From the NCBI GenBank assembly GCA_944388865.1, contig CALXKM010000050.1, forward strand, positions 1 to 35,689: 35,689 nt of DNA. Reading direction: 5' to 3'. The notes beneath the pieces are model-generated. The model ran no database searches and was not told where the DNA came from. It was given only the letters and a program-made list of their open reading frames with translations. This DNA comes from an uncultured Duodenibacillus sp. Its GTDB lineage: Bacteria; Pseudomonadota; Gammaproteobacteria; Burkholderiales; Burkholderiaceae_F. Positions within the stretch are counted from its first letter, which is position 1. Each line of letters opens with the position of its first letter. Shown here piece by piece: positions 876 to 30,418 of this stretch. Made by a program: the position numbers and the translations under genes.

Positions 876-1262
876 TCAGCGTCTGTTGGCGACGGGTTTG
901 GCGCATGCGCATGACAAGTGCATGACGCGCTCAATCATGTGGTGCAGCGCCTCGGCAAGCTCCGTGTCGGCAGCGCGGTAAAAGACTTCTTTTCCCTCGC
1001 GACGCGTGAGTACAAGTCCGCTTACTTTCAAAAGCCGCAAGTGATGCGCTACAGCGGGGCTGCTCATGTCCATCAGAGCGGCGATGTTGATGACGCATTC
1101 TTCGGAGTGGCAAAGCAAAAGAAAGATGCGGCAGCGGCAAGGGTCGCTGAGCTGCTTGAAAACCTGTGCAACCGACTCAAAGGCTGCCGAAGCCGGCATT
1201 TGGGAGGCATCAGCAGAGCTTGCGCTGTCGTGTTGGTGCGGAAGAACGGATGAAGGCGACAT
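876..1262 (-). CDS. ArsR/SmtB-family metal-responsive repressor
   Basis: 128-residue winged-helix repressor of the ArsR/SmtB/CadC family, which binds operator DNA when metal-free and releases it on metal binding. The core runs FKQLSDPCRCRIFLLL, then ECVINIAALMDMSSPAVAHHLRLLK (recognition helix SSPAVAHHLRLL), then the wing GLVLTRREGKEVFYRA. Candidate metal ligands are Cys in the ECVIN segment and, in the last helix, D/E residues (DTELAEAL), His residues and a terminal HLSCAC. The set resembles the alpha-5 zinc site of CzrA/SmtB only in part, so the metal (Zn, Cd or Pb) is uncertain. It is divergent from the HMA/P-type ATPase genes, with operator-like inverted repeats between them. There is an unusual ~25-residue N-terminal extension, and no good ribosome-binding site is visible, so a later Met start is possible. 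Confidence 0.9.
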   Translation of the reverse strand: MSPSSVLPHQHDSASSADASQMPASAAFESVAQVFKQLSDPCRCRIFLLLCHSEECVINIAALMDMSSPAVAHHLRLLKVSGLVLTRREGKEVFYRAADTELAEALHHMIERVMHLSCACAKPVANRR

Positions 1263-1284
1263 TGCGGAACTTGGAAGAATTTAA

Positions 1285-1302
1285 ATTAAACGATTATTTA
1301 AT
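1285..1302. promoter_or_regulatory. ArsR operator, site 1
   Basis: ATTAAA-CGATTA-TTTAAT, a perfect 6-bp inverted repeat with a 6-bp centre. It lies immediately upstream of the -35 box of the HMA gene promoter and 22 bp from the arsR start codon. The same ATTAAA-N6-TTTAAT pattern recurs at 1344-1361 and, nearly intact, at 1734-1751. This matches the general ArsR/SmtB operator style. Binding by this ArsR is inferred. Confidence 0.65.
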
Positions 1303-1303
1303 C

Positions 1304-1332
1304 TTGACATCGACTGCTGAAGCGATTATAGT
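1304..1332 (+). promoter_or_regulatory. Promoter of the HMA gene
   Basis: TTGACA at 1304-1309 and TATAGT at 1327-1332, separated by 17 bp: near-consensus sigma-70 boxes. The expected start site is near 1339. Operator site 1 abuts the -35 box and site 2 begins at about +4, so a bound repressor would occlude the promoter from both sides. Confidence 0.75.
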
Positions 1333-1341
1333 GAAGTCAAT

Positions 1342-1380
1342 CGATTAAATGTTAGTTTAATCGTTAAACAGTCGTTTGAT
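1342..1380. promoter_or_regulatory. ArsR operator, sites 2 and 3 (tandem)
   Basis: Site 2 is a perfect inverted repeat, CGATTAAA (1342-1349) and TTTAATCG (1356-1363) around a 6-bp centre. A degenerate third copy follows, GTTAAA-CAGTCG-TTTGAT (1363-1380), two substitutions from the core pattern. Site starts are 19 bp apart, about two helical turns, which would suit side-by-side repressor dimers. Confidence 0.55.
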
Positions 1381-1406
1381 AACTTTTGCCATCAAGGAGG
1401 AGGCGA

Positions 1407-1454
1407 TTGTTCCCCCTGCATGAGCGCACGGGGCAGCACGCAGATTTTCTATGA
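1407..1454 (+). CDS. Possible 15-codon leader peptide
   Basis: Just upstream of the HMA gene is a strong Shine-Dalgarno run, AAGGAGGAGG (1394-1403), too far from the ATG at 1451 to serve it directly. A TTG at 1407 is correctly spaced and opens a 15-codon frame (two His, no Cys). Its TGA (1452-1454) overlaps the HMA ATG as ATGA. This would explain how a gene with no close ribosome-binding site is translated, by coupling. The TTG start is weak evidence, and the frame could be chance. Confidence 0.35.
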   Translation: MFPLHERTGQHADFL

Positions 1455-1669
1455 AGAAGACGTACGAAATTGAGGTTGACTGCGCCAACTGTGCGCGCGA
1501 GATGGAAGAGGCCGCAGCCAAGGTCGAAGGCGTTGCCGAGGCAACGGTAAACTTCATGACGCAAAAAATGATCGTCAAGTTTGCCGAGGGGGCTGAGCCC
1601 GCAGACGTGATGCAAAACGTTCTGAAGGCCTGCAAGAAGGTAGAGCCTGACTGCGAAGTTTTCCTCTAA
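1451..1669 (+). CDS. HMA-domain metallochaperone (free-standing metal-binding domain)
   Basis: 72-residue protein consisting of a single ferredoxin-like heavy-metal-associated domain. The metal motif is VDCANCA (about residues 9-15), with Asp before the first Cys. That is the form typical of the N-terminal domains of Zn/Cd/Pb ATPases (CadA/ZntA) rather than the MxCxxC of copper chaperones. No signal peptide, so it is cytoplasmic. It lies upstream of a P1B ATPase that lacks such a domain and probably delivers metal to it in trans. No in-frame start exists upstream, because a stop lies at 1421. The gene is followed by a terminator, so it can be made in excess over the ATPase. Confidence 0.85.
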   Translation: MKKTYEIEVDCANCAREMEEAAAKVEGVAEATVNFMTQKMIVKFAEGAEPADVMQNVLKACKKVEPDCEVFL

Positions 1670-1687
1670 GAAAACCTTTGCAGAGTC

Positions 1688-1722
1688 AAAAGCGTCGTCT
1701 TGCCTGAAGCCGGCGCTTTTTT
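1688..1722 (+). terminator. Rho-independent terminator after the HMA gene
   Basis: AAAAGCGTCG ... CGGCGCTTTT form a 10-bp stem (one G-U pair) followed by a run of T. It begins 19 nt after the HMA stop codon and separates it from the ATPase gene. Confidence 0.7.
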
Positions 1723-1728
1723 TAGAAT
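1700..1728 (+). promoter_or_regulatory. Candidate separate promoter for the ATPase gene
   Basis: TTGCCT (1700-1705) and TAGAAT (1723-1728) with a 17-bp spacer (4/6 and 5/6 matches to consensus). The -35 box lies inside the preceding terminator hairpin. The predicted start, near 1735, falls inside the operator at 1731-1754. It is supported by geometry only. Confidence 0.45.
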
Positions 1729-1730
1729 AT

Positions 1731-1754
1731 ACAATTAAACAAATGCTTAATTGT
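1731..1754. promoter_or_regulatory. ArsR operator upstream of the ATPase gene
   Basis: Perfect 8-bp inverted repeat ACAATTAA (1731-1738) and TTAATTGT (1747-1754) around an 8-bp centre. It contains the ATTAAA-N6-CTTAAT pattern seen at the divergent promoter. Its place over the predicted ATPase transcription start suggests independent ArsR repression of this gene. Confidence 0.6.
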
Positions 1755-1813
1755 TCTGGGCAGCAGCTGTCTCTTGCCGCTCAGACAATCTGATCAAAAA
1801 GAGTAGTTTTTCT

Positions 1814-3697
1814 ATGAAAGCCAAGCAAAAGAAGATGCTCGTGCGCATCATCCTTGCAGCCGCCGTGCTCATTGCCTTGATTTTTGTTCCCGTCACGGGC
1901 TGGCAACGGCTGGTGCTTTATCTGGTGCCGTATCTGATCGTCGGCTACGACATTCTTCTGAAGGCGGCCAAGGGCATAAAAAATGGGCGCATTTTCGACG
2001 AAAACTTTTTAATGACGGTGGCTACGCTCGGAGCCATTGCTATAGCTTTGTACGACGATACGGGCGACTATACAGAAGCCGTTGCCGTGATGCTTTTCTA
2101 TCAAATCGGCGAATGGTTTCAGGGTTACGCCGTGGGAAAAAGCCGCAGAAACATCGGCGAGCTGATGGACATCAGGCCCGATTACGCCAACATTGAAAAG
2201 GACGGAGTCTTGGAGCGCGTCGATCCCGATGATGTTGCCGTAGGAACGGTGATCGTCGTGCAGCCTGGCGAAAAGGTGCCCATTGACGGCGTGGTGGTCG
2301 AAGGCAATTCAAGTCTCAACACCAGTGCGCTCACCGGCGAGAGCGTGCCTCGGGGCATCAGCCAGGGCATGGAGGTTGCCAGCGGCTGCATCAATCTGAC
2401 CGGTCTCATCAAAGTGCGCACCACCAAGCTTTTTGGTGATTCGACCGTCTCGCAGATTTTGGAGCTTGTGGAAAATGCAAGCTCGAGAAAATCGCGCTCG
2501 GAGGCCTTCATCACGCGCTTTGCCCGCGTCTATACGCCCATTGTCTTTTTCAGCGCGCTTGCGCTTGCTCTTTTGCCGCCGATGGTGCGCATGCTCGGCA
2601 TGGGGCTTGAGCCGCAGTGGGATGATTGGATTTACCGAGCCCTGGTCTTTTTGGTCATCAGCTGCCCGTGCGCCCTGGTGATCAGCATTCCGCTTTCGTT
2701 TTTTGCCGGCATCGGCGGCGCAAGCAAGGAAGGCATCCTGGTTAAGGGATCAAATTATCTTGAAGCGCTCTCGGAAACGAGCACCCTTGTGATGGACAAA
2801 ACGGGCACGCTTACGCAGGGCGTCTTTGAAGTGAGCGCCGTGCACCACAACACGATTGACGAGAATCGTTTGATTGAGCTCACGGCGCTTGCCGAAAGCG
2901 CCTCGTCGCACCCTATCAGCAAGAGTCTGCAGAAGGCTTACGGCAAGTCGATCGACCGCAGCCGCGTCTCTGAGGTTCGAGAAGTTGCAGGCCAAGGCGT
3001 GACGGCCGTCGTCGACGGCCATCTGGTCGCCGCCGGCAACGAAAAGCTCATGAAGAGCATTGAAGTCTCCCCCATCTCCTGTCGCTCTGCGGGCACCATT
3101 GTGCATGTGGCCGTCGACGGTCTTTACTGCGGACACATCGTTATTGCTGATCGATTAAAGCCTCACGCCGTGCGCGCCATTGTGGAGGTTAAGCGCGCAG
3201 GCATCAAAAAGACCGTAATGCTCACCGGAGACAATCGCAAGACGGCCGAAATCGTAGCCGAAGAACTCGGGGTCGATGAGGTCAAAAGCGAACTCATGCC
3301 GGGCGACAAGGTGGCAGCCGTTGAGGAGCTCCTGGCGCATCAGCGCTCAGGCAAGCTTGCCTTTGTGGGCGACGGCATCAATGACGCGCCGGTGCTCTCG
3401 CGCGCAGACATCGGCATTGCCATGGGCGCCATGGGGTCGGATGCGGCCATTGAGGCAGCCGATGTGGTGCTCATGGACGACGATCCGCTCAAAATTGCCA
3501 AGGGCATCAAAATCTCGCGCAAGTGCCTGCGCATCGTCAAGCAAAACATCTGGTTTGCCATTGGCATCAAGGTGCTGTGTCTGCTCTTGGGTGCTGTGGG
3601 GCTGGCCAATATGTGGATGGCGATTTTTGCCGACGTCGGCGTCATGATTCTTGCGATTCTGAACGCCATTCGCGCTTTGTTCGTAAAAAATCTATAA
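1814..3697 (+). CDS. P1B-type heavy-metal efflux ATPase (Zn/Cd/Pb type)
   Basis: About 627 residues. It exports divalent soft metals from the cytoplasm using ATP. Visible motifs, in order: two N-terminal membrane pairs, the actuator LTGES, the channel motif SCPCALV in the sixth helix, phosphorylation site DKTGTLT, nucleotide-domain SHPI, and hinge GDGINDAP. In the last helices, MAIFADVG carries an Asp in the position typical of ZntA/CadA rather than Cu pumps. The usual N-terminal HMA domain is absent: the protein begins with a short basic stretch and goes directly into the membrane. The HMA domain is encoded separately upstream. I chose ATG 1814. A TTG at 1751 would extend the frame but lies inside the operator. 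The ribosome-binding site is weak. Confidence 0.92.
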   Translation: MKAKQKKMLVRIILAAAVLIALIFVPVTGWQRLVLYLVPYLIVGYDILLKAAKGIKNGRIFDENFLMTVATLGAIAIALYDDTGDYTEAVAVMLFYQIGEWFQGYAVGKSRRNIGELMDIRPDYANIEKDGVLERVDPDDVAVGTVIVVQPGEKVPIDGVVVEGNSSLNTSALTGESVPRGISQGMEVASGCINLTGLIKVRTTKLFGDSTVSQILELVENASSRKSRSEAFITRFARVYTPIVFFSALALALLPPMVRMLGMGLEPQWDDWIYRALVFLVISCPCALVISIPLSFFAGIGGASKEGILVKGSNYLEALSETSTLVMDKTGTLTQGVFEVSAVHHNTIDENRLIELTALAESASSHPISKSLQKAYGKSIDRSRVSEVREVAGQGVTAVVDGHLVAAGNEKLMKSIEVSPISCRSAGTIVHVAVDGLYCGHIVIADRLKPHAVRAIVEVKRAGIKKTVMLTGDNRKTAEIVAEELGVDEVKSELMPGDKVAAVEELLAHQRSGKLAFVGDGINDAPVLSRADIGIAMGAMGSDAAIEAADVVLMDDDPLKIAKGIKISRKCLRIVKQNIWFAIGIKVLCLLLGAVGLANMWMAIFADVGVMILAILNAIRALFVKNL

Positions 3698-6102: not shown

Positions 6103-7524
6103 ATGAACGAACTCATCGGACTGTATCCGGCCTGGCTCGAGCCAGGCATCGGCGCCGGCTGGGTGATCGGGGCAATCGCCACCATACACGTGCTTTTCTC
6201 GCATGCGTCTGTTGGCGCCGCTCTCGTTTTTGCCTGGCTGGCTCGCCGCGCAGTGACGGCAAATCAGCCGCAGCACATTGACTTTATTCGCCGCTACGGA
6301 GCTTTTTTGCTGATCTTCAGCTACGTGCTCGGCTCCGTCACCGGCCCCGGCATTTGGTTCGCCGCAACAATTGCCAATCCACGCGGCATTTCTGCGCTGA
6401 TTCACAACTTCGTCTGGCTTTGGGCGACCGAGTGGGTCTTTTTCTTAATTGAGATCGCAGGCGTCTATCTGCTCGTGTACCTGGCCGGACGCGTTCCTGT
6501 CAAAACATACTTGAGATACGCAACGATATTTGCGCTCTCGAGCGTCGGCACGCTCTTGATCATCGTGGGCATTCTCTCCTTCATGCTTTGGCCGGGATCT
6601 CCTGATTGGTACCAAACGGGCGGCGTGCTCTCGGCTTTCTTCGGAGAGTCGATGTTTGCTCAGCTTGCCGTGCGGTTTTTCTTCATGCTCACCATCACGG
6701 GCGTCGTAGGAGGCTTTGCTGCCGCTAAGACGACCGATCCGGCAGAGAAGGCATACATTGCCCGCACGCTCTCGAGCCTGGGCGCTTTCGGCGCCGTGAT
6801 GGGCACGCTCTGCTTTTACTGGTTCATGTCTTCGCTTGCTCCGGAGACGGCCGACGTGATCGGCACGCGCATGCCCGAGAGCTTCGGCATGATGATGGGC
6901 GCAAGCGTGGGCGTGGCGCTTGCCTACTTTGCTTTTACTGCCTGGCGTCCGACGATGGTTGCCATGGTGCCGGCGGCCGTAGCGACGGTTCTTATTCTCG
7001 TGCTGGGATTGGCGCCGGGCGAGACGGCTCGCGAAATCATCCGCAAGCCCTGGGTCGCCGGCCGATATGTCTATGCCAATCAAGTTGTGGGGCGAGACGT
7101 TCCGGCTCTCGGAATTCAGAGCGAATTGCCCAAGCTTGAACAAAAAGGCATTCTCGGCACCCATCCGTTCTTGCCGGAAAATCTGCGCAATCCCCAGACG
7201 CGCTGGGAGCGGCTGGAGGCTGGGCGTGCAGCGGGCATCGCTGCTTGCTCGAGCTGCCACTCGCTTACCGTTTCCGGCATCCGTCCCATGCGTGAATTTT
7301 TCCCGAAGAATGCTTCAGCTGCCGACATAGAGACTTGGCTCGGAGCAGGACTGCATCGCGGACACATCGCATACATGCCGGCTTTGCCTCTGCCGGAGAT
7401 GGACCGCAGAGTGCTGGCTGAATTCTTGGCCGAGATGATCAAGCTGCAGGCTGAAAATCCTGATCAGGCTGCTCACTATGCGGTCAAAGGCTTCCCGAAG
7501 GATCAATACGAGGAGAAGAAATAA
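6103..7524 (+). CDS. Cytochrome bd-superfamily subunit I-like protein fused to a c-type heme domain
   Basis: 473 residues: about eight membrane helices, then a periplasmic cytochrome c domain. Helix 1 has IHVLFSH, with His29 placed like the heme-d ligand of CydA. Helix 3 carries two Glu (E110, E117), like the E99/E107 pair of Escherichia coli CydA. After the last helix comes a KPWVAGRY stretch, recalling the CydA GRQPW motif. The CydA quinol-binding Q loop is not visible. The tail has CSSCH (382-386) and a candidate axial Met in YMPALP (about 425). From memory, bd-superfamily branches lacking the quinol site and carrying heme c have been described, and this probably belongs there, taking electrons from cytochrome c. 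The start at MNELIG is chosen from helix-1 alignment, although its ribosome-binding site is weak. It is the first gene of a five-gene operon. Confidence 0.75.
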   Translation: MNELIGLYPAWLEPGIGAGWVIGAIATIHVLFSHASVGAALVFAWLARRAVTANQPQHIDFIRRYGAFLLIFSYVLGSVTGPGIWFAATIANPRGISALIHNFVWLWATEWVFFLIEIAGVYLLVYLAGRVPVKTYLRYATIFALSSVGTLLIIVGILSFMLWPGSPDWYQTGGVLSAFFGESMFAQLAVRFFFMLTITGVVGGFAAAKTTDPAEKAYIARTLSSLGAFGAVMGTLCFYWFMSSLAPETADVIGTRMPESFGMMMGASVGVALAYFAFTAWRPTMVAMVPAAVATVLILVLGLAPGETAREIIRKPWVAGRYVYANQVVGRDVPALGIQSELPKLEQKGILGTHPFLPENLRNPQTRWERLEAGRAAGIAACSSCHSLTVSGIRPMREFFPKNASAADIETWLGAGLHRGHIAYMPALPLPEMDRRVLAEFLAEMIKLQAENPDQAAHYAVKGFPKDQYEEKK

Positions 7525-8804
7525 TGACTGAGAACTTGCCTCTGGCCGGAGCTCAGATGCTGACGGCCGCGCTTGCTGATCCTGCGGGCGCACCTTCTCA
7601 TCCAGCCATTTTCCTGGTTTTGGGCGTTGTAACGTTTGCGCTGCACATCGCCGCCGTGGCGCTGCTGCTGGGCAGTACCGGCGTAGCGGTCTACGGCGGC
7701 TGGCGAGGCGGTCCGCATTGGCAGCGGCTGGGTGCGACCATGGCCTTTACGGCCAAGACATCGATGGCTGCGGCCATTGTGCTCGGCGTGGCGCCCCTGT
7801 TGTTCGTACAGGTGATTTTTGATCCGTTCTGGTACGCCACAAGCATGCTCTCTGCTGTCTGGACGCTCGTGTTTCTGGCCGCACTGCTTGTGAGCTATCT
7901 GGCGCTTTACCGTGCCAATGCAGTGATGCACGCGCATAACGGACAAAGCATTTTGAGTGCGCGAGCGGTTTTTTGGCTGGTGGTTGCCTTTGTGCTCTTC
8001 ATCAAGTGCGGCGCGCTGATGCACACCTTTGCCAATCAGGCGCTCTTTCCTACGCATTGGCTTGAGTGGTACGCGCCCAATGGTCAGATTGACGCGTCGG
8101 GCCGCTCGCTGCACTACGTGCTGCTGCCGAGATTTCTCTTTTTCATTTCGCTTGCCTTGCATGTGACGGCCGGCTGGATTTACGGATTGCGCCGCTGGGT
8201 TCTTTCCAAGCGCCATGTTCACAATGAAGACGGTCTGTACTCGGATTTTCTGGAAAAAGTGGCGTTTCGTCTGGGGCAGACGGGCGGCGTGCTCGTGTTC
8301 GTGCTCGGCGTGATCTGGATGCTGATGCTGCCGCCCGAACAGCAGTGGTTCTTGTCTGAACCCTGGCCTTATGTCGGCTTGATCCCGCTGCTTTATTTCG
8401 TGGCTCTGCCCTACATCCAGAAAAGACGGCGTCTGTGCATCACATGCAACTACATGGGCTTTGTCATGTCGGTGATCATGACGGTGGTGCTTGCCGCTTT
8501 GAGAGAAGCGCTTCGCGTGGGCACGCTTTTTGAGTCATCAGGCTGGAATCCGTTTGATATGGCGGTGCATTGGGATGTGCCGAGCATGGCGATCTTCTTT
8601 GTGACATTTCTTGCCGTCGGCGGCACGAGCCTGGCTTATATCCTGAGCGCGGCCTGGACGGCGGGGCTCGAGACTTCGGGCAGAGCTGAAGCCGTTTGGG
8701 TTCCCTCCGCCGGGCATGAAAAGCTCGGCAAGTGGGCTGCCGCATTGCTGGGCATTTGGGTCGTCGCCTACTTTGTTGTCGGCGCTGCAGTGATGCTTGC
8801 CTGA
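7524..8804 (+). CDS. Second bd-like membrane subunit
   Basis: 426 residues with roughly ten membrane helices and no heme c motif. The beginning (VTFALHIAAVALLLGSTGVAV) and the next helices follow the same pattern as the first subunit: an early His in helix 1, a short loop, then helices 2-4. This suggests a diverged paralogue of subunit I. It lacks the acidic pair of helix 3: the stretch MLSAVWTLVFLAALL contains no Glu or Asp. It is therefore likely to be a structural partner, not the oxygen-reducing subunit. Its ATG overlaps the preceding stop by one base (TAATG), with a GAGGAG ribosome-binding site, so the two subunits are translationally coupled. Confidence 0.7.
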   Translation: MTENLPLAGAQMLTAALADPAGAPSHPAIFLVLGVVTFALHIAAVALLLGSTGVAVYGGWRGGPHWQRLGATMAFTAKTSMAAAIVLGVAPLLFVQVIFDPFWYATSMLSAVWTLVFLAALLVSYLALYRANAVMHAHNGQSILSARAVFWLVVAFVLFIKCGALMHTFANQALFPTHWLEWYAPNGQIDASGRSLHYVLLPRFLFFISLALHVTAGWIYGLRRWVLSKRHVHNEDGLYSDFLEKVAFRLGQTGGVLVFVLGVIWMLMLPPEQQWFLSEPWPYVGLIPLLYFVALPYIQKRRRLCITCNYMGFVMSVIMTVVLAALREALRVGTLFESSGWNPFDMAVHWDVPSMAIFFVTFLAVGGTSLAYILSAAWTAGLETSGRAEAVWVPSAGHEKLGKWAAALLGIWVVAYFVVGAAVMLA

Positions 8805-8821
8805 TGCGGAGGATGCAAAAA

Positions 8822-9187
8822 ATGATGAAAAAAAGTTTGCTCAAGCTCTCAGTCATGGTGTTGGGCGCCGCTGCAGGAAGCGTTTGGGCTGCCGGTTCGC
8901 AGGCCGATTACGATCCGCTCAAGGAGCCTTCGGGGGCAGCCTTTGCGCATATTTGCGCGGCCTGCCACGGCACGTACGGTTATGCACGCGATTCGGCTTT
9001 CCCTCCTTTGGCAGGGATGGATGCCCAGGTGTTTGCTTCAGAAATGAAGAAGTTTCGCAGCAAAGAGCGTCCCAGCTCCATCATGAGTCATATCGCTGAC
9101 GGCTACAGCGACGCGGAAATCGAGCGCATGGCGCAGTTTTTTGCAGCTTTGCCCAAGACTGCTCCTCAAGGAGGAACAAAAAAATGA
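8822..9187 (+). CDS. Periplasmic monoheme cytochrome c
   Basis: 121 residues. A Sec signal peptide (MMKKSLLKLS..., cleavage expected after VWA) precedes one class-I cytochrome c domain with CAACH at about residues 45-49. The C-terminal helix (DAEIERMAQFFAAL) is typical of small cytochromes c. The start is set by GGAGG at 8808-8812, nine bases before ATG 8822. It begins 17 nt after the membrane subunit and overlaps fccB by four bases (ATGA). Position and size suggest it is either the heme subunit of the flavocytochrome or a shuttle to the oxidase. Sequence alone does not decide. Confidence 0.85.
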   Translation: MMKKSLLKLSVMVLGAAAGSVWAAGSQADYDPLKEPSGAAFAHICAACHGTYGYARDSAFPPLAGMDAQVFASEMKKFRSKERPSSIMSHIADGYSDAEIERMAQFFAALPKTAPQGGTKK

Positions 9188-10596
9188 GAAAGTTTGATTT
9201 ATTAAACTTTGCTCGTGAGGCGGCTGCTGGAGCGCCTGACATGGTGCGCCGCAGACTTTTGACGGCTGCTGCTGCGAGCCTTGCTCTGCCGGGGGCGTTG
9301 ACTTCCGGCAAGGCTTGGGGGGCGTCTGCCGGCGCAGGCTTTCGCGTATTGATCGTGGGCGGCGGCGTAGGGGGAGCAACGGCCGCCAAATATCTCAAGA
9401 TGTGGGCGCCGGACATTGAGGTCACAGTCATTGAGCGCAATCCTTCGTTTGTTCGGCACTACGGCAGCTCCGAACATTTGACGGGCGCGGTGACGATGCA
9501 GGATCTGACGGTGAGCTATGACGGGCTGCGTGCGCGCGGCGTCAAGATTGTGCAGGCGCAAGCCAAAGGACTCGATCCGGTGAAAAGAACGGTGACGGCG
9601 CAGGGCCCCGACGGCGCTTTGGTTCAGTGCGGCTACGACGCGCTCATCGTTTCACCCGGCGTCGAGCTTTTGTATGACGGCATTGAGGGCTACAGCGAGC
9701 AAATCGCCGAGACTTCCATTCCTTCGGGCTGGATTGCCGGAGCCCAGACGGCGCTGCTGCGCCGGCAGCTTCTTGCCATGCCCGACGGCGGCACCGTGGT
9801 GATCGTTGCCCCTCCAAATCCTTACCGCTGCCCTCCGGGACCCTACGAACGAAGTGCGCTCGTCACCGAATGGCTCCTTGAGCACAAGCCGAAGAGCCGC
9901 GTCGTCATCCTTGATCCGAAAAATGATTTCGTCACCGATGAGACGATGATCCTCGGCTGGAACCATCTCTACGGCTACGCGCCGCCGCAGCCTTACGCTG
10001 AGAAGCTCGACAAGTTCATGGTTGAGCCTTCGAAAGACTGCCGCATTGAGTGGCGCCGCGAAAAAGACGGGGGCAAGCCGCTTTCCGTTGATCCCTCGAC
10101 GCTTACGGTGCGGACGCCTTCCGGAGCTGTCAAGGCTGATGTGCTCAACATCGTGCCGCCCATGCGTGCTGCCAATATCGCTCGTGATTTCGGGCTGACC
10201 AATGCTTCGGGCTTCTGTCCGATCGACAGACGCACCTTTGCCTCAAGCCTTGTTCCAGATGTGTACGTGCTTGGCGACGCTTCGATTGCTGATGCCATGC
10301 CGAAGTCGGGCTACTCGGCCAACACCCAGGCAAAAGCTTGTGCCAGAGCGATTTTGTGCCGCCTGCAGGGACTTGAGCCGCCGGAGCCGGCCTGGTCGAA
10401 TACCTGCTATGCACTCGCAGGCGACGATTGGGGACTGTTCGTAGCCGATACTTTCCGCATTGTCGACGGCAAGATTGCCCGCACCAATACCCGTGCACGC
10501 TACCAAGACCTTGACGCTTCGCGCGTTCAGCGCCAGGTGGCCGCAAAATATCTGCGGGCCTGGATGAGAAGCATCACGGCCGATTCTTTTGGCTAA
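9184..10596 (+). CDS. fccB: FccB-like sulfide dehydrogenase flavoprotein, Tat-exported
   Basis: 470 residues, the flavoprotein of the flavocytochrome c sulfide dehydrogenase family. It oxidises sulfide in the periplasm and passes electrons to a cytochrome c. A twin-arginine signal (VRRRLLTAAAASLAL, residues 21-35) exports it folded. The FAD-binding motif is VLIVGGGVGGATAA. The redox-active cysteine pair is present: C216 in PYRCPPGPYER and C408 in NTCY. From memory these correspond to Cys161 and Cys337 of the Allochromatium enzyme. A further Cys345 (GFCPID) is also family-typical. The Cys that covalently holds FAD in Allochromatium appears replaced: the segment SFVRHYGSSEHLTG has none. Sulfide as substrate is inferred from the family. 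Confidence 0.85.
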   Translation: MRKFDLLNFAREAAAGAPDMVRRRLLTAAAASLALPGALTSGKAWGASAGAGFRVLIVGGGVGGATAAKYLKMWAPDIEVTVIERNPSFVRHYGSSEHLTGAVTMQDLTVSYDGLRARGVKIVQAQAKGLDPVKRTVTAQGPDGALVQCGYDALIVSPGVELLYDGIEGYSEQIAETSIPSGWIAGAQTALLRRQLLAMPDGGTVVIVAPPNPYRCPPGPYERSALVTEWLLEHKPKSRVVILDPKNDFVTDETMILGWNHLYGYAPPQPYAEKLDKFMVEPSKDCRIEWRREKDGGKPLSVDPSTLTVRTPSGAVKADVLNIVPPMRAANIARDFGLTNASGFCPIDRRTFASSLVPDVYVLGDASIADAMPKSGYSANTQAKACARAILCRLQGLEPPEPAWSNTCYALAGDDWGLFVADTFRIVDGKIARTNTRARYQDLDASRVQRQVAAKYLRAWMRSITADSFG

Positions 10597-10616
10597 AAGA
10601 GGAGAACATACAAGCT

Positions 10617-11447
10617 ATGAAATTTCATAAATTTTGCGCCGGCATGCTCGCTCTTTTAGCCGCAGGCGTCGTTTGGTCGGCTTCAGATTCTTCGAATCAA
10701 GAAAAACTGGCTCAGAAATATGAAGCCGTTGTCGATGAAAAGGCTGCGGCTGCCCGCACAATGCTGCCCGCAGAGGTGCAGCCGCAGGCTCCTGCCCCCA
10801 AGCCGCAGCAGCGGCAGGCGTTGACTCCGCAGCAATGGAGCAAAACGCTCGCCGGCATGCCGCAGGCTGAGGTTTTCCAAGGCTTTTCGGTGCACTCCAA
10901 GCATTTCTGCTCAAGCTGCCACGGCAAGCAGGGGCTGGCCGATACCCCGAATTGGCCCGATGTGGCAGGACAGCCCAGCGCCGTGACCATCAAGGCGCTG
11001 CTCGACTATCGAGAAGGTCGACGCAAGGGGACGCCTGCCGCCGACTTGATGACTGCGGCTGTTGCAAAGCTCTCGGATCAGGAGATTGTCGATGTTGCCG
11101 CGCTCTACGAATATTTGCCGGGCCGCGGCTCTGATCGGCAAGCTGCACCTCTTGCGAGTGCTCCGAAGCTTGTCCTCAAGGGCGATCCTGCAAGGATGGT
11201 CACGCCTTGCGCGGCCTGTCACGGAACCAGCGCCAGAGGCAATCCAAACGGCCAGGTGCCTGTTTTGCACGGACAGCAGGACTCTGCGATTGAGACTGCC
11301 CTGCGCGACTACCGTTCGGGTGCGAGAACTTCCGATATGCTGATGGAGATGCGTCAATTTTCAAAGGCGCTCACCGATGAAGAGATCAAAGAGCTTGCCC
11401 GCTGGTACGCAGGCCAGCCTGGACGGCCCGCTCAGGAGCAAAAATAG
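10617..11447 (+). CDS. Diheme cytochrome c (FccA/cytochrome c4-like)
   Basis: 276 residues. An N-terminal Sec signal (FCAGMLALLAAGVVWSAS) is followed by a Pro/Gln/Ala-rich linker (about 51-72). Two cytochrome c domains follow, with CSSCH at 98-102 and CAACH at 198-202. The layout resembles cytochrome c4 and the diheme FccA subunit. GAGGAG lies 12 nt before the ATG, 20 nt after fccB. It is probably the electron acceptor of FccB or the link to the heme c of the membrane oxidase. The operon ends here with a strong terminator. The low-complexity linker is unusual and could act as a tether. Confidence 0.85.
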   Translation: MKFHKFCAGMLALLAAGVVWSASDSSNQEKLAQKYEAVVDEKAAAARTMLPAEVQPQAPAPKPQQRQALTPQQWSKTLAGMPQAEVFQGFSVHSKHFCSSCHGKQGLADTPNWPDVAGQPSAVTIKALLDYREGRRKGTPAADLMTAAVAKLSDQEIVDVAALYEYLPGRGSDRQAAPLASAPKLVLKGDPARMVTPCAACHGTSARGNPNGQVPVLHGQQDSAIETALRDYRSGARTSDMLMEMRQFSKALTDEEIKELARWYAGQPGRPAQEQK

Positions 11448-14671: not shown

Positions 14672-17600
14672 GTGATTGAGACCTTCTACAGCAATTCGTA
14701 CGAATTCTTGCGCGAGCTTTTGTGCGAGACGATTCGCCAGGAACGCAGCCGAGGCGCTTGCAGTCCCTTCAAGGAGAATCATGTGCTGGTGCCGTCAGCG
14801 GCTGTGGCCGATGACCTCAGGATGCATTTTTCTCGAGCCTTTGGGACGGCTTGCGGACTTGACTTTTCGTACATCGGACAGTGGCTTGCAAACTTTACGC
14901 AAAGGCGCGGCGCAGCCCAGGGGTCGTTTCTCGACGACTTGGACTGGATGATACTTTTGCTTTTGGCTGACGAAAAATTTCTGGAGCGCGAGGGTTGCCA
15001 AAGACTCAGGCACTATGTCAAAGAACAAAATCCGGCCTCGCTTTGCGCTTTTGCCCAGCGCCTTGCGAGACTTTTTACGACATACGCCACCTATCGGCTC
15101 GATTGGGTGCTTGACTGGATGGGAGCCGACGTCAAGGTTTTTGAAAAGGGGAGCTCGGCGCGCAGACAGCGCGAGCGCCAGGTGCTTGAGGCGCACCCTG
15201 ACAGCGCATGGCAAAAAGAGATGTGGTCGGAATTTGCCTCGCGCTGCTGGGGGCCGGACCAGGAACCTTGGGCGGGCGCAAAGCTTCTTGCCGAAGTGCC
15301 CGAGCGCTGGAAGGAGCTGCTCTCAAAGGATCCTGTCAAAGACAAAGGCGAGGCCCTTCATGTATTTGTGCCCGATGCGCTGCCGCCTCTGGCGCTTCCC
15401 TTTCTGCAGGCGCTCTCAAAGACAACCGACATCAACGTCTACTGCATCAATCCGTCTTCGGCCTATTGGTTCGAGTCGATGCCCGCAGAGCTTTTCGCGC
15501 AGTGGAGCAAAAAGCAAGCTGGCGCTCTTTCCTATCTGAGGCGCAATGCCTCAAGCGAGCGCGCGCAGATTGAGCGCATTTGGAATTTTTCGCGCGACCC
15601 CGAGACGGCTTCAAGTTTGTGCGAAGACGACCTTCAAGCGCCTGCATCCGTCAAGCGCCAAGGCCTGATGAGCGACGCCGCGCAGCTCGATCCCGCGGGG
15701 CTGCTTGATCTTCGCGCCGCCGACGCTGCGCCCCAGCAGCAGACCATGGTCTATGTCAACAGAAATGAGGACAGCGTGCTGCACTGCCTGCAGCAGGCGA
15801 TTTTGGAAGACGACCCGAATAAGCTTGCCAGAAAGAGAACTGAGGACGACGAATCGATTTTCATCGTGAAGGCCCCGAGCTCTGCGCGCGAAGTCGAAGC
15901 GCTCGTTGACTGGATTCAGGCGCTCATTGAGCGCACTGCCCGCCAGAAGCGCCCCATTGCGGCCGACGACATTCTCGTTGTGACGCCCGACATCAATGCG
16001 ATGGCTCCTGTCGTTTCGGCTGTGCTTGACAACCGATTCGGCAAAGAGGCCATTGCCTACAGCATCGTCGGCCAGTCCGTGGTCGACGTCAACTCGGCTG
16101 CTCAGGCAATTCTTGCTGCAGGGCGATTTGTTTTCTCGCGCGCCGAGCGCAAAGACTTCGAGGCGCTTTTGGCTTACCCGATCACGGCCTTTGCAAGAGG
16201 CTTTGGCGGCGTTGATCTGGGCGCGGTCTCAAATTGGCTTGCGGCAGCCGGATACCGCTTCGGGCTCAATGAAGCGCACGCACGGGGACTTGTGCAAAAG
16301 GGATTGGCGCAAAGCGAGGGCGAAAGTTTTGAGGGCACGCTTGAGCGCGCTCTCGAAAGACTCAACTTGGGGGCCTTTGCCCGCAGCGAAGAGCCCAGAA
16401 CCTTTGCCGACGTATACGCCACCCGCGGCGATGAGCTCGGAGGCTTTAGCCGGGTTGATCAGGCCCAGCAGGCCCGCACGCTGGAATTTCTGCTGGGATT
16501 TGCGCAGGCGCTGCTGCGGGTAAGCGACGCCCCCAAAAAGGGATCCGCCCAGCAGTGGCAGAGCTGGACGCATGCGCTCATCTCGGAAGTTTTTCCAAAG
16601 GCTGCGCAAAGCGACGAAGTGCTTGTCTTTTGCGCGATTGTCGACGAGACGGTTGAAAAAATGCAGCGCGTGCTGGGAGAAGAGGGAGTCGATTTCGAGA
16701 CGTTCTGGACAATGCTGGGCATCAGAGCAACGGCCGGGCAAACGACGCTTCGCAGCACGGGGCGCGTCATATTTGCTCCGATTGATGCCTTTCGCTGGCT
16801 GCCTAGGCGCGCGATTGCCGTTCTTGGGTTGAACGAGGGCTCGGGTTTTCCAGGCGTGAACCGAAGCGAAGAATTCGACCTGATGCAGGCCGAGTGCGTG
16901 CACGAGGGTCAAAGACTTTCAGCCAGACGCAAGGGCGATCGAGACAGCCGCAGAAACAACCGCAACGTCTTTTTCGATCTGCTGCTTTCGGCTCGGGAAT
17001 ATTTCTACTGCTCGTACTGCGTCGGCAGCGACGCCGTTGAGAAAAATCCTTCGGTTGTTCTGCAGGATCTGCGGCAGACTCTGGCCATCGGCTTGGGCAG
17101 CGAAGAGGATGTCGAGCGAGAGCTCACGGTGCGGCTTGCCCCGCAGGCGGCTTCTTTAAAGAGCTTTGATGCGCGCATGAGGCTTGCCGCAAGCCGCGAT
17201 GCGGCTGCGGCCCTGGCAGTTGAAGCCGCCAGACGAGAAAACTATCTTGCCAGCGAGGCGCTCTTTTTGGATGAGAGCGCCGTGTCGATGCCTCAAGACG
17301 GCCAAGTGCGCAGCGTGAGCCTTACCGAATTCATCGAAGCCTTCATCTATCCGGACTCCTGGCTCATGAAGGCCTTGTCGATTTCCAAGATCGCGGCGCA
17401 GGGCGCGAGCGAAGTTTCGCTTAATGCCTCCTTTGACGACGCGCTTTTGCAAAAGAACTTTGCCCGCAGCGTTCTAGATCAGATGAAAAAAGGGAAGTCC
17501 GACGAGCAAATCCTGCAGGTGCTCGCGCTCAATCCGGCCATGGGGCTTGAGTCTGCGCGAACTTCCTGCGTGGGAGCCAAAGTCGCTGCTATCAGAAGCG

Positions 17601-18280
17601 GCTTTGAGAGCATGCAGGAGGCGATCGGCCAGAGCTCCTCAAGCATCGTCAAGTTCGAGTCGGCCGCAATCGGCGCCGGTTGCTACCGCCATCTCAAGCT
17701 GCCGGCCATGACCGTTTATGAAAATGAGGACAAAGAGCGCTTCGTCGTGCTCGAAGCCTTTTCCTCAACGGATATGGAGCGAGCTTTTCTGCGCTTTCTT
17801 GCGCTTGCTTCGGTCGACGAAGAGATTTCTGCGGTCATCGTCAACTTCAAGGCCGCTGGCGGCGATCAATGCATTTATCTGCGCTCGGCAAGGCAGGCGC
17901 AGCTCACGAGCCTTCCCAGGCAGACGATGGAAGTTTTGATGCAGATTTTCGAAAAGCAGGCGCTTGAGCCGCCCGCCATGGCAACGCAGCTCTTTTCGAA
18001 TTGGAATGCCCAGCAAAGAAGTTCGACGGAAATGACAAACGGCGCTCCGATCTGGCTTGGGCGCGGCGACAGACAAGATGTGCAGCAGCGCACCCAGAAT
18101 TTGAAGAGTGCCGTCTTTGGTCTGCAAAAACTTTTCGAAAAGCAGGCGGCATCGGGAAAAAAGAGAGTCTCAAGCAAGAAAAAGAAGTCGCCCGTGGAAA
18201 GCTTTAATGAGGCGGCAGCCGCTTTTGGTCTGGACACGAGCATAGAGATTTGTGGAAATGATGATGAACAGCAATCCTGA
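14672..18280 (+). CDS. recC: RecBCD subunit RecC (exodeoxyribonuclease V gamma)
   Basis: 1202 residues, a little longer than the 1122 of Escherichia coli. RecC holds the complex together, splits the DNA strands and recognises Chi. The N-terminus (IETFYSNSYEFLRELL ... ENHVLVPS) fits the RecC family. Other family-like stretches are VHVFVPDALPPLALPFL, LNRNEDS-type inactivated helicase segments and GRVIFAPIDAFRWLPRRAIAVLGLNEGSGFPG. The gene starts at GTG 14672, with only a weak ribosome-binding site. It overlaps recB by about 20 bases and is followed by recD, giving the order recC-recB-recD with no ptrA between. The lysine-rich C-terminal tail (KKRVSSKKKK) is an extension I do not know from the family. 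Confidence 0.93.
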   Translation: MIETFYSNSYEFLRELLCETIRQERSRGACSPFKENHVLVPSAAVADDLRMHFSRAFGTACGLDFSYIGQWLANFTQRRGAAQGSFLDDLDWMILLLLADEKFLEREGCQRLRHYVKEQNPASLCAFAQRLARLFTTYATYRLDWVLDWMGADVKVFEKGSSARRQRERQVLEAHPDSAWQKEMWSEFASRCWGPDQEPWAGAKLLAEVPERWKELLSKDPVKDKGEALHVFVPDALPPLALPFLQALSKTTDINVYCINPSSAYWFESMPAELFAQWSKKQAGALSYLRRNASSERAQIERIWNFSRDPETASSLCEDDLQAPASVKRQGLMSDAAQLDPAGLLDLRAADAAPQQQTMVYVNRNEDSVLHCLQQAILEDDPNKLARKRTEDDESIFIVKAPSSAREVEALVDWIQALIERTARQKRPIAADDILVVTPDINAMAPVVSAVLDNRFGKEAIAYSIVGQSVVDVNSAAQAILAAGRFVFSRAERKDFEALLAYPITAFARGFGGVDLGAVSNWLAAAGYRFGLNEAHARGLVQKGLAQSEGESFEGTLERALERLNLGAFARSEEPRTFADVYATRGDELGGFSRVDQAQQARTLEFLLGFAQALLRVSDAPKKGSAQQWQSWTHALISEVFPKAAQSDEVLVFCAIVDETVEKMQRVLGEEGVDFETFWTMLGIRATAGQTTLRSTGRVIFAPIDAFRWLPRRAIAVLGLNEGSGFPGVNRSEEFDLMQAECVHEGQRLSARRKGDRDSRRNNRNVFFDLLLSAREYFYCSYCVGSDAVEKNPSVVLQDLRQTLAIGLGSEEDVERELTVRLAPQAASLKSFDARMRLAASRDAAAALAVEAARRENYLASEALFLDESAVSMPQDGQVRSVSLTEFIEAFIYPDSWLMKALSISKIAAQGASEVSLNASFDDALLQKNFARSVLDQMKKGKSDEQILQVLALNPAMGLESARTSCVGAKVAAIRSGFESMQEAIGQSSSSIVKFESAAIGAGCYRHLKLPAMTVYENEDKERFVVLEAFSSTDMERAFLRFLALASVDEEISAVIVNFKAAGGDQCIYLRSARQAQLTSLPRQTMEVLMQIFEKQALEPPAMATQLFSNWNAQQRSSTEMTNGAPIWLGRGDRQDVQQRTQNLKSAVFGLQKLFEKQAASGKKRVSSKKKKSPVESFNEAAAAFGLDTSIEICGNDDEQQS

Positions 18281-21200
18281 ATTCAATCTTGTCAGTTCGC
18301 ATCTGACCGGCCGATGGCTTCTTGAGGCTAGCGCGGGCACGGGCAAGACGTACTCTCTGGAACATCTGGTGGCCAGACTGCTCGTGGAGCAAAAAAGTTC
18401 AATTGAGCGCATCCTGCTTGTGACGTTTACCAATGCCGCCACAAACGAAATCAGCGAGCGCGTCAGGCAGCTTCTAAAGCGCATGTACGCGCGCTCGCTG
18501 CCTCAGGCTCAGCCTTTGAGCGACGCGATTGAAGAAAAGCTCATCGATCAATGGGTGAGCTCGGGCTTTGATCTGACGAACATTTTCGGCCGTGCGCTGG
18601 AAGCCTTTGACGACGCTTCGATTTTGACGATTCACAGGTTCTGCCAGAAGATGCTCTCGGAATTCAGCTTTACGAGAGCAGGCGACTATGAAGTTGAGCT
18701 TGCTGAAACCAACGAGCTCATCGATGCGGTCGTTGAGGAATTCATTCGACGCGAATCGGCGGCGTTGAGACAAAAAGACGATGCCGCAAAGCTTCTTGGC
18801 TGGAAGGACAATCTGTGCAAAGTGCTCGAAAAGCTCGCGGCGGCCGTGCCGGTTGTTGCCGAAATTCGAATTGATGAGAACTTTTCAGGCGCCCCCGAAG
18901 CTGAGATTTCGGACGAGCTCAAGCAAATCTTTGAAAGATTTCTCAGTGAAGCGCCGGCAAGACTCTCCGAGCTCGAAAAAAATGCACGCACGATGACCTT
19001 TGACGGGCTGCTGGTCAAAACGCATGAACTTGTCAAAAAAAATAAAGAGCTCGCGCGCAGCATTCGCCGCCGCTATGACGCCGTCTTGATCGATGAGTTT
19101 CAGGATACGGATTCGCTGCAGTACGGCATCTTCAAGACGCTCTTTTTCCCCGAAGACGCTGCGCCCGAAGAGGTCGCCCAAGCTCCCAAGTCCGTCTTTT
19201 TTGTGGGAGACCCCAAGCAGGCAATTTATGCCTTTCGCATGGCTGAGCTTGAAACCTACATGCAGGCTCGCCGCGAAATTCAAGCGCTCCCCAAAGACAA
19301 AGGCGGCGTTTTGGAACTCACGCAGAACTTTCGCTCCGCCAAGCCTCTGGTTGAGTTCGTCAATGCCTTTTTTGCAAGCAAGGACGAGCGAAGCGCCTTT
19401 TTAACGCCCGAAATTGAATTTTCAAAAAGCACGGCTGCGGGATCTTCCGTGCAGCTCGTGCGCGTGATGGGCGATAGGGCGGTTCCGATTCCCGCGGTGA
19501 GCATCTGGATGAATCCGGTTGAGTTTGAAGAAGAGCCCGACGAGCACCCCTTCAATGCCGCCGAAGCTCGGGAAAAAGAGGCGCTTTGGATTGCCCGCGA
19601 CATCGCCTCGCTTCTTGACGGCACGGTGCGCGTGAGAAAAAAGAATGTTGTCGACGGCGTGGTGCGCTCCTCTCGTCCGCTTAAGGCAAGCGACATCGTC
19701 ATTCTTGCTCCCTCGCGCACCGACAGCGACCTTTTCGTCGAGACGCTTGCCAAGCACAACATTCGGGCTGTCGTCGACTCGCAGCAGGACGTGCTTCAAA
19801 CCAATGAGGCGCTCGAAATTCTTGCCGTGCTGCGCGCCATGCTGAGCACCTCTGACAGAAGGCTTGTGTCGGCTGCCCGCGCCACGCGCCTGATGGGACG
19901 CACATTGTCCGACATTCGAAGGCGCGAGGAGTTGGCCGTCGCCGACAGAGCGCTTCTTGAAGAGGCGCTTGAGCGCTGGAGCACGTCGGGGCCGGCTGGC
20001 GCGTTTGGCCTCATCATGAAGAAAAGGGAGACGACGCAGCGGCTTTTGAAGGTGAGTCAAGGGGCTGCGGCGCTGACAAACTACGCGCATGTCGTCGAGA
20101 TTCTGCAGGCGAGCTGGACGGCGCTCAGAGGCGCTTCGGCCGTGCTCGAGCGGCTTGAAGCCGCAATGAGCAGTTCGCAAAAAGCTCCTGAAGAAAGAAT
20201 GGTGCGAAGCGCCGCCGACGAAGATGCCGTGCGCTTTGTCACCATGCACTCAAGCAAGGGGCTGGAATTTCCCGTGGTGTATCTGGCCTCAATCTCGACG
20301 CTCAAGGAGCGCTCCAACAAAGACGTCTTCTTTAAGGGCGAAGGCGAAAGCGGAAAGTTTGCCGTTGCCGCGCCGATTGAGCTTGGCGAAGAGATCCGAA
20401 AAGAGGCGGCCATGCGCGAGCGCATCGAAAAGGTACGTTTGGCCTACGTCGCCATGACGAGAGCTTCGTCGCGGCTCGTGCTGCCGATGTTTGGCATCAA
20501 CACCCGACAATGGAAGTCGTCCTTTTCAAACGCATGCAATCGCGCGCTTTTTGCGATGAAAGGTGACCCCGAAGGGAAATTTGGCGAAAACAGCGCCAGA
20601 GTGCGCAGCGCCTGCCGGGATTTGATGCAAAAGACTAACGAGGCCTGCGGCGAAAGTACGATCAATCTTGAAGACTTTGGCGAAGGTCTCGCCTGGCTTG
20701 ATGACTGGGAGAATCTGCCAAAGCCCGTTGAGATGGTCACGGAAGCCCCCGGTGAGATGAAGCTAGAGCTCGATAAAGAGCGTGATTTGCAGCCATGCAG
20801 GGCGCTGGCCTCGCACGGGCTGCTGCCTGCCTGGAGGCGCTCGAGCTTTACGGCGATTTCTCGAAAGCTTCTGTCTCAGAGCGAGGCGGCAGACGAATAT
20901 GAGCCCGGCACCGATGTGCTCGATCAGATGGCGCAGGCGCAGACGGCTTATGCTGCCGAAGATGATGAGATAGGCGCAGCGCCCGCACCTGACAAAGAGC
21001 AAAATCCGGCTGCGGCGGCTTTCCTGCGCGGAAAGGATGTCGGCGATTGGCTGCACAGACAGCTTGAGCGCGCTTTCAGCGCGCGCAAGATGAGCGAGCG
21101 CTGCGCGCTGCTTGAGGCTGCCGCCGATGAGCTCGATCAGGCCTTTTTTATGGCAGGCAGAACAGCTAAGGAGCTTGAAGCTGCAAAAAGACTCATTCGC

Positions 21201-21800
21201 GCGCGCTTTGGCGCGCTCAATGATGCCGAGCTCTTTGTCGAGAAGAGCTCGGGGCGCAGCATTCGCCTGGCCGATGTTGACGCTTCGCGCTGCCGGTCTG
21301 AGATGGACTTTTTGATGCATGCGCCCTCAAAGAGTCTGGATGTGGCTTCGCTTATTGCTGCGCTCAACGCCTGCGGACTTGACTTTGCAAGCGAAGCCGC
21401 CGAATCCCTGCAGGGCTTTGTGACGGGCTCAATTGACCTGATGTTTGAAGCCTGCGGCAAGTATTGGGTTCTCGACTGGAAGAGCAACTTCATCGGCGAC
21501 GGACTGCCGCAGTCTTATACGCAAGAGGCCGTTGCAGAAGAAATCAAAGAGAAAAATTATGCATTGCAGTACATCATCTATCTGACGGCATTAAAGCGCC
21601 ACTTGATTGCCTCGGGCGGATATTCCCAAGAGACGGTGTGGGAGGCCATCGGAGGCGCCGTCTACGTATTCTTGCGCGGCATTGATGAGAACAACGAACT
21701 GCAGCCGCAGGGCTCTAGAAGAGGCGTTTTCGTCGACTGCCCCCGCGAAGCTGTCGATGCGCTTGACGCTCTTTTGGGATCGGACTTGAGCAGCAAATAA
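18258..21800 (+). CDS. recB: RecBCD subunit RecB (helicase-nuclease)
   Basis: 1180 residues. RecB is the 3'-5' SF1 helicase and the only nuclease of RecBCD, for double-strand break repair and destruction of linear foreign DNA. Walker A is ASAGTGKT (Lys30). Walker B is VLIDEFQDTD, followed by FFVGDPKQAIYAFR, TQNFRS and VRFVTMHSSKGLEFPVVYL (motif V) and the VRLAYVAMTRA motif VI. The C-terminal nuclease shows LDWKSN (D1073, K1075), then YTQEAV and the YALQYIIYLTAL helix, as in E. coli. Three ATGs occur in a row (18258, 18261, 18264). A GTG at 18252 is also possible. The start overlaps the recC end, implying coupled translation. Confidence 0.96.
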   Translation: MMMNSNPEFNLVSSHLTGRWLLEASAGTGKTYSLEHLVARLLVEQKSSIERILLVTFTNAATNEISERVRQLLKRMYARSLPQAQPLSDAIEEKLIDQWVSSGFDLTNIFGRALEAFDDASILTIHRFCQKMLSEFSFTRAGDYEVELAETNELIDAVVEEFIRRESAALRQKDDAAKLLGWKDNLCKVLEKLAAAVPVVAEIRIDENFSGAPEAEISDELKQIFERFLSEAPARLSELEKNARTMTFDGLLVKTHELVKKNKELARSIRRRYDAVLIDEFQDTDSLQYGIFKTLFFPEDAAPEEVAQAPKSVFFVGDPKQAIYAFRMAELETYMQARREIQALPKDKGGVLELTQNFRSAKPLVEFVNAFFASKDERSAFLTPEIEFSKSTAAGSSVQLVRVMGDRAVPIPAVSIWMNPVEFEEEPDEHPFNAAEAREKEALWIARDIASLLDGTVRVRKKNVVDGVVRSSRPLKASDIVILAPSRTDSDLFVETLAKHNIRAVVDSQQDVLQTNEALEILAVLRAMLSTSDRRLVSAARATRLMGRTLSDIRRREELAVADRALLEEALERWSTSGPAGAFGLIMKKRETTQRLLKVSQGAAALTNYAHVVEILQASWTALRGASAVLERLEAAMSSSQKAPEERMVRSAADEDAVRFVTMHSSKGLEFPVVYLASISTLKERSNKDVFFKGEGESGKFAVAAPIELGEEIRKEAAMRERIEKVRLAYVAMTRASSRLVLPMFGINTRQWKSSFSNACNRALFAMKGDPEGKFGENSARVRSACRDLMQKTNEACGESTINLEDFGEGLAWLDDWENLPKPVEMVTEAPGEMKLELDKERDLQPCRALASHGLLPAWRRSSFTAISRKLLSQSEAADEYEPGTDVLDQMAQAQTAYAAEDDEIGAAPAPDKEQNPAAAAFLRGKDVGDWLHRQLERAFSARKMSERCALLEAAADELDQAFFMAGRTAKELEAAKRLIRARFGALNDAELFVEKSSGRSIRLADVDASRCRSEMDFLMHAPSKSLDVASLIAALNACGLDFASEAAESLQGFVTGSIDLMFEACGKYWVLDWKSNFIGDGLPQSYTQEAVAEEIKEKNYALQYIIYLTALKRHLIASGGYSQETVWEAIGGAVYVFLRGIDENNELQPQGSRRGVFVDCPREAVDALDALLGSDLSSK

Positions 21801-21818
21801 AAACGAGGAAAGAGAGCA

Positions 21819-29071: not shown

Positions 29072-29111
29072 TTCATTATCTCCTAGTGGCATGAAATGCT
29101 GTTTATTTTGA

Positions 29112-30407: not shown

Positions 30408-30418
30408 AAACAAATCGT

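Follow-up and report, generated by a model that had tools for sequence, protein, structure and literature searches.

We describe a group of five genes that appears to encode a dedicated sulfide:oxygen electron-transfer chain working without quinone, the bc1 complex or a heme-copper oxidase, a reading to which we give a probability of about 0.72. The genes lie in a 35,689-nucleotide stretch of DNA from an uncultured Duodenibacillus sp. (contig CALXKM010000050.1 of assembly GCA_944388865.1; the whole stretch is called the window below), where they form a co-directional operon at positions 6103-11447 of the + strand. The operon combines a flavocytochrome c sulfide dehydrogenase (FCSD) with two membrane proteins, for which the names OrA and OrB were coined in this analysis, and the order of its genes reads as oxidase, FccAB, c4. 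Gene content, gene order, predicted fold, conserved residues and co-inheritance are what was observed, as is the lack of any detected heme-copper oxidase or cytochrome c1 in this genome; which hemes are bound, how the electrons flow and what donates and accepts them is inferred. The open reading frames and their start sites were read from the sequence and are as follows:

6103-7524, + strand: OrA, 473 amino acids (aa), a CydA-fold membrane subunit (as predicted) with a C-terminal heme-c domain containing CSSCH (C382-S-S-C385-H386) and M425.
7524-8804, + strand: OrB, 426 aa, a second CydA-fold membrane subunit (as predicted), without CxxCH, with invariant H41, R327 and R331.
8822-9187, + strand: FccA-like monoheme cytochrome c (P0003), with CAACH, a signal-peptide-like start and a match to 1fcd_C.
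9184-10596, + strand: FccB (P0004), 470 aa, the FCSD flavoprotein, with a twin-arginine-like leader and the cysteine pair C216/C408.
10617-11447, + strand: cytochrome c4-like diheme cytochrome c, with two CxxCH, a signal-peptide-like start and a match to 1etp.

The initial annotation of this DNA had described five tightly packed genes at this position, and all five were found there on the + strand with that packing and with CxxCH motifs, one in OrA, one in the monoheme cytochrome, two in the diheme cytochrome and none in OrB. The gene overlaps that it listed hold for two junctions, OrA/OrB (1 base) and monoheme cytochrome/FccB (4 bases). OrB and the monoheme cytochrome either overlap by 1 base or are 17 bases apart, according to which of the possible ATG codons (8804, 8813 or 8822) is used; the one at 8822, which sits after GGAGG, appears preferable. 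The last junction, between FccB and the diheme cytochrome, is a gap of 20 bases. Scanning for promoters gave 0 sigma-70-like sites, compared to a mean of 2.3 after shuffling.

The bd superfamily comprises the qOR, OR-C and OR-N oxidases (PMC13189123). In the proposed chain, the FAD/disulfide site of periplasmic FccAB would convert sulfide into sulfur or polysulfide, the electrons would pass from FccB to the heme of FccA, cytochrome c4 would carry them on to the heme-c domain of OrA, and OrAB, as a bd-superfamily enzyme linked to cytochrome c and probably belonging to the OR-C branch, would reduce oxygen at a pair of buried hemes. Sulfide poisons heme-copper oxidases. The sulfide resistance of a bd-type enzyme would allow sulfide to be burned at low oxygen, which may serve to detoxify sulfide, to remove oxygen and perhaps to conserve some energy. 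Growth of E. coli with sulfide depends on its sulfide-insensitive bd oxidases (PMC10205796). The initial annotation had proposed the same route, from sulfide through FAD, heme c and a bd-type heme to oxygen. The predicted fold, the candidate ligands, the fccB linkage and the genome context described below support this route, with sulfide, oxygen and the path between them as its conditional part.

The sulfide dehydrogenase part is the most readily recognized one. FccB contains FCSD_central (PF21706, E 7e-38) and FCSD-flav_bind (PF09242, E 1.1e-16), together with PF07992, all three above cut-off, and its family profile matches chain A of 1fcd with E 7.1e-123. C216 and C408 align, as counted by hand on the profile alignment, with C161 and C337 of 1fcd, which we take to be the redox cysteine pair of that protein. 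Both residues are kept in 70/70 FccB rows linked to OrA (the window and the loci described below gave 71, and one short row was dropped), in 26/26 stand-alone FccB rows drawn from the best matches, and in the two rows labelled apart, which bears out the FccB homologue and the cysteine pair of the initial annotation. A third cysteine, C345, was considered as the second catalytic cysteine and rejected, because the residue count makes C408 the equivalent of C337. C345 is kept in 62 of the 70 linked rows and in all 26 stand-alone ones; the eight linked FccB that have lost it come mostly from Thiomicrorhabdus-type hosts (L082, L084, L085, L092, L094, L095, L099 and L100) and form, together with the second-copy FccB of L091, one long-branched group. 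Export of FccB by the twin-arginine translocation pathway, also proposed earlier, is consistent with RRR at residues 22-24 of its leader; a loose pattern picks up a twin-arginine-like motif in 49 of the 70 linked rows.

Both soluble cytochromes could be identified further than in the initial annotation, which had named them only as monoheme and diheme cytochromes c. Among solved structures, P0003 is matched best by 1fcd_C, with E 9.5e-16 and an alignment to the first 74 residues of this chain, so the monoheme protein is FccA-like, and the diheme protein is cytochrome c4-like, with a match to 1etp (E 3.2e-18). FCSDs combine a redox cysteine pair and FAD with a monoheme or diheme FccA (PMC12010331) and deliver their electrons at the cytochrome c level (PMC4288042). 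In two relatives belonging to one genus (G568 and G812), OrB and two CxxCH motifs are found in a single 606-aa frame (L132, 6364-8184, and L133, 3873-5693). No FccB is present in the stretches fetched around these fusions, and in G568 an FccB is encoded elsewhere in the genome. Such a fusion fits the diheme cytochrome being a partner of OrAB.

The membrane proteins had been called CydA-like, and this stands for their fold: in a comparison of predicted structures both OrA and OrB come out as strongly CydA-like, with matches to alternative complex III and PsrC considered and ranked below CydA. The links to CydA by sequence only are weak. PF01654 matches OrA of the window with E 0.063 and 12.3 bits, under the cut-off of 26.2; one OrA relative (G018) reaches 28.5 bits and three others score 20.6-23.9 bits, again under the cut-off. 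An NCBIfam search of the membrane proteins gave no match. The OrA profile matched a mycobacterial CydA with no better than E 0.11, below rows that were mostly small cytochromes c, and the OrB profile had no match up to E 1; hhalign of OrB with a two-row CydA alignment gave E 0.45. When the OrA and OrB profiles are compared by hhalign, they do match (probability 96.4, E 1.1e-9). It is the fold comparison that settles the CydA resemblance. The initial annotation held that a fold unlike CydA or a loss of heme ligands would speak against it; what was found is a predicted CydA-like fold in which candidate heme ligands are kept.

These candidate ligands were assessed on alignments of 44 rows for OrA and 48 rows for OrB. 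H29, E110, E117, R191, E311, R314, CxxCH and M425 of OrA are invariant in 44/44 rows. In CydA, H19, E99, E107 and E445 are active-site ligands, and H186 is a ligand of heme b558. A low-probability hhalign alignment of OrA with two CydA rows (probability only 11, E 0.0027) pairs H29 with H19 and E117 with E107. By reading, E110 would correspond to E99 and E311 to E445, and the VIA end points (OrA residue 328 vs 462) agree with the latter equivalence. The Q-loop between helices 6 and 7, a mark of the qOR oxidases, is absent from OrA throughout the 44 rows, the loop at this place having 16 residues in 40 of them, 18 in one and 24 in three. OrA position 192, matched by eye to H186 in a part where the alignment is insecure, is T in 31/44 rows and F in 5/44, and H is not among its four commonest letters. 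In OrB, H41 is invariant (48/48) and E328 is present in 45/48 rows; H41 would match H19 of CydA, judging from the VIA start point against 6rx4_A (24 vs 2) and from the OrA-OrB profile match. OrAB would then have an active site of bd type that lacks the quinol loop and probably b558, and that receives its electrons from heme c. The OrA model has 8 long helices, interpreted as membrane helices. The N-terminus of CydA lies outside; with eight helices and an outside N-terminus as in CydA, the C-terminal heme-c domain of OrA would be periplasmic. Three distant relatives (L134, L135 and L024) carry a CxxCH of their own in each of the two membrane subunits.

A scan of named genomes returned 529 stretches with an OrA relative, of which the best 80 were kept, making 79 loci; this set represents the closest kin, and counts made on it are biased towards near relatives. 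The initial annotation would have been contradicted by homologous operons consistently lacking fccB; the co-occurrence survey shows FccB adjoining OrA in 70 of the 79 loci, downstream in 63 and upstream in 7, and six of the other nine end less than 1.8 kb after OrA (L029, L037, L055, L068, L088 and L089). With the genes numbered as listed above, the order is 1-2-3-4-5 in 58 loci, two loci have an extra cytochrome c, six have the order 3-4-1-2-5, and of the 13 with other orders nine are, by our own reading, cut by a contig end. A chance grouping of the genes was rejected on the basis of this conserved order. Most hosts are beta- or gammaproteobacteria, and many belong to sulfur-oxidizing genera. 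The record titles include Thiomicrorhabdus, Hydrogenovibrio, Halothiobacillus, Thiobacillus, Thiomonas, Thiocapsa, Thiothrix and Sutterella. Other hosts are Hydrogenophaga, Tepidimonas, Limnohabitans and Marinobacterium, which are not chiefly known for sulfur oxidation, and one bin labelled as a deltaproteobacterium (L061). Loci from named strains or species include those of Sutterella wadsworthensis 2_1_59BFAA, Duodenibacillus massiliensis, Thiomonas bhubaneswarensis and Thiomicrorhabdus species. Thiomicrorhabdus heinhorstiae carries two tandem copies of the operon (L091, 4963-15143), the FccB of the second copy having diverged.

Evenly drawn samples of genomes from the class, order and phylum give a wider view. 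Weak OrA matches (E 8.4e-4 to 4.9e-7, mostly short and to the cytochrome c domain) were removed before counting, in 2/11, 3/11 and 10/13 genomes, respectively. OrA was then present in 9/370 class genomes, with FccB adjoining in five, in 8/399 order genomes, with FccB adjoining in six, and in 3/397 phylum genomes, with FccB adjoining only in the window's own. In the family, 7/67 genomes have OrA; FccB lies beside a copy in six, and the contig of the seventh (G019) stops behind OrB. FccB is thus a mark of one large OrA branch and not of the whole oxidase family. FccB itself is commoner than OrA and is found in 88/276 class genomes at E 1e-40. Thirty of these class FccB loci were fetched, with flanks of about 1.5 kb unless the contig ended earlier. 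Four are linked to OrA; the other 26 show a frame for a c-type cytochrome upstream and neither OrA nor OrB within these flanks.

The genes of the operon appear to have been inherited together. On the FccB tree, linked and other rows are nearly separate, with 3 label changes compared to 24.6 in shuffles. In this test the two rows labelled apart were grouped as stand-alone, and one of them, L091 at 13842, is really the second operon copy, so the count of label changes is slightly too high. Over 68 loci, OrA and FccB tree distances correlate with rho 0.776 (shuffled maximum 0.149), and 28/65 splits are shared; for OrA and OrB the value is 0.899 (shuffled maximum 0.153), with 39/65 splits shared. 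Apart from one another and L050, the Chromatiaceae operons L047, L048 and L059 have betaproteobacterial or unnamed rows as their nearest ones in all three quick trees, and the operon may thus have been transferred in one piece.

The window belongs to a Sutterellaceae draft genome that is 98.8% complete in 53 contigs and has kin named Duodenibacillus and Sutterella. The heme-copper oxidase (PF00115) and cytochrome c1 (PF02167) are each found in 0/7 of the OrA-bearing family genomes, the window's included; among all 67 family genomes they occur in 27 and 18, respectively. The genome searches found no other known oxygen-reducing acceptor for class I cytochrome c. Matches to PF13442 below E 0.1 in the window's genome are those of the operon's four heme-c domains only (E 1.9e-5 to 0.03), and the next one has E 0.11. 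A stronger version of our reading holds that this single operon is a complete respiratory chain from sulfide to oxygen, free of quinone, bc1 and heme-copper oxidase, that its bd-type enzyme is a sulfide-tolerant cytochrome c oxidase, that it also holds every cytochrome-c domain detected by PF13442 in the genome below E 0.1, and that the module was passed on in one piece among beta- and gammaproteobacteria, many of which oxidize sulfur. We regard the chances of this version as evenly balanced; our confidence in it is lower because the cytochrome c survey used one model, whose matches to the operon's own domains are under the cut-off, and may miss cytochromes.

That limit of the survey also weighs against the dedicated chain as such, and so do several other observations. 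The window's genome encodes a canonical CydA, with a frame next to it that looks CydB-like by eye, and oxygen respiration independent of OrAB is therefore available to this bacterium. A NapC/NrfH-type multiheme cytochrome is present in 7/7 OrA-bearing family genomes, which possibly leaves room for another quinol-to-cytochrome c route, and one of the seven has a match to the cytochrome c peroxidase family. The correspondence of active-site residues between OrA and CydA was partly read by eye: hhalign places E99 off E110 and does not reach E311/E445. In the evenly drawn samples, FccB is absent beside OrA in 4/9 cases in the class (G570, G568, G812 and G669), 2/8 in the order (G346 and G396) and 2/3 in the phylum (G570 and G887), G570 being in two samples. 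Among the 79 close loci, three that are not cut short are truly without FccB (L027, L096 and L097), L027 sharing its genome bin with L026 and L097 its strain with L086, both of which are full operons.

OrAB could be a general bd-type cytochrome c oxidase to which FccAB is one of several donors in a loose partnership. OrA/OrB homologues with no FccB in the fetched stretch (L022, L024, L130, L132, L133, L134 and L135, in addition to the three loci just named) speak for this reading. Most of the FccB-less relatives from the wider samples are more distant; the OrA of L130 (G570) is not, since with 640 bits it is as similar to the family profile as several linked ones, so the lack of FccB extends beyond distant kin. 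The window's genome, however, offers neither another PF13442 match below E 0.1 nor a cytochrome c1, and FccB stands beside OrA in the great majority of the close relatives, and we consider a general oxidase unlikely. The chemistry might also differ at either end of the chain, with OrAB reducing another acceptor, e.g., nitric oxide or peroxide, or FccAB oxidizing another thiol or sulfane sulfur. The loss of C345 in some linked FccB, when every stand-alone one keeps it, leaves room for a drift in substrate in some of them, but the residues of the bd-type active site are conserved, as are both redox cysteines, and many hosts are named as sulfur-oxidizing genera; this possibility seems to us the most remote of those considered. 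Only marginally less improbable is that OrAB runs in reverse, as a cytochrome c:quinone reductase that feeds electrons from sulfide into the quinone pool. A dedicated chain from sulfide to oxygen remains the reading that we prefer.

Other genes of the window lie on both sides of the operon. A DDE transposase (PF01609; 3935-5656) is located directly upstream, about 450 bases before OrA, and is preceded by an ArsR-type regulator and a P-type ATPase, likely a metal efflux pair (876-3697). Downstream, RecC/RecB/RecD-like exonuclease V genes are consecutive (14672-23645), and at 27983-35605 a phage-type integrase lies by two oppositely oriented type I specificity genes, together with hsdM and hsdR, an arrangement resembling a phase-variable type I restriction system whose hsdS is invertible.

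The physiological acceptor and role of FCSD are debated. If the dedicated chain is real, the question of where FCSD electrons go would have an answer, FCSD would gain a dedicated terminal oxidase, and the c-type bd branch a defined electron donor. Sulfide could then be respired with oxygen where heme-copper oxidases would be poisoned, and gut Sutterella and Duodenibacillus would have a means of clearing sulfide as well as oxygen at the mucosa. With its five proteins, the set is small enough to reconstitute.

The operon can be compared with four known systems. With the FccAB of Allochromatium vinosum (1FCD), Thermochromatium (3VRD) and Thioalkalivibrio (5N1T) it shares the adjacent fccA and fccB, the cysteine pair, and the FAD and C-terminal FCSD domains. 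It differs in that its FccA has one heme, compared to two in 1FCD, and in that the FccAB genes are co-directional with a bd-type oxidase. The six linked FccB rows that were inspected have an extra loop near residues 270-290, which the eight inspected stand-alone rows lack. The resemblance to E. coli CydAB (6RKO/6RX4) lies in the predicted CydA fold of both subunits and in the tentatively aligned active-site H and E of OrA, whereas in OrAB the quinol loop is absent, the b558 histidine is apparently lost, a heme-c domain is added, and the second subunit is CydA-like rather than CydB. In OR-C oxidases, heme c is fused to the CydA-like subunit; this branch was reportedly defined by Murali in 2021, and we know of no member that has been characterised biochemically. 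OrAB shares with it the predicted CydA fold, the absence of a quinol loop and the heme c, CxxCH and the distal Met being invariant in the OrA alignment, and it probably belongs to this branch; what sets OrAB apart is its tie to a sulfide dehydrogenase. The CydAA' of the OR-N branch, found in nitrite oxidizers and, to our knowledge, uncharacterised, also has two CydA-like subunits and constitutes a different branch. OR-N types are thought to draw electrons from cytochrome c, and the available part of the same source does not mention FccAB with OR-N (PMC10839748). The OR-C branch is named there as well, and OR-C profiles already serve in annotation (PMC11707229). Among the full-text literature matches listed on bd oxidases and FCSD, as far as their text was available, no operon combining FCSD with a bd-type oxidase is described; the paper defining OR-C and most subscription papers lie outside that scope, which makes this silence weak evidence of novelty. 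The parts of the system, an FCSD and probably an OR-C bd branch, are already known, and it is their pairing that appears new.

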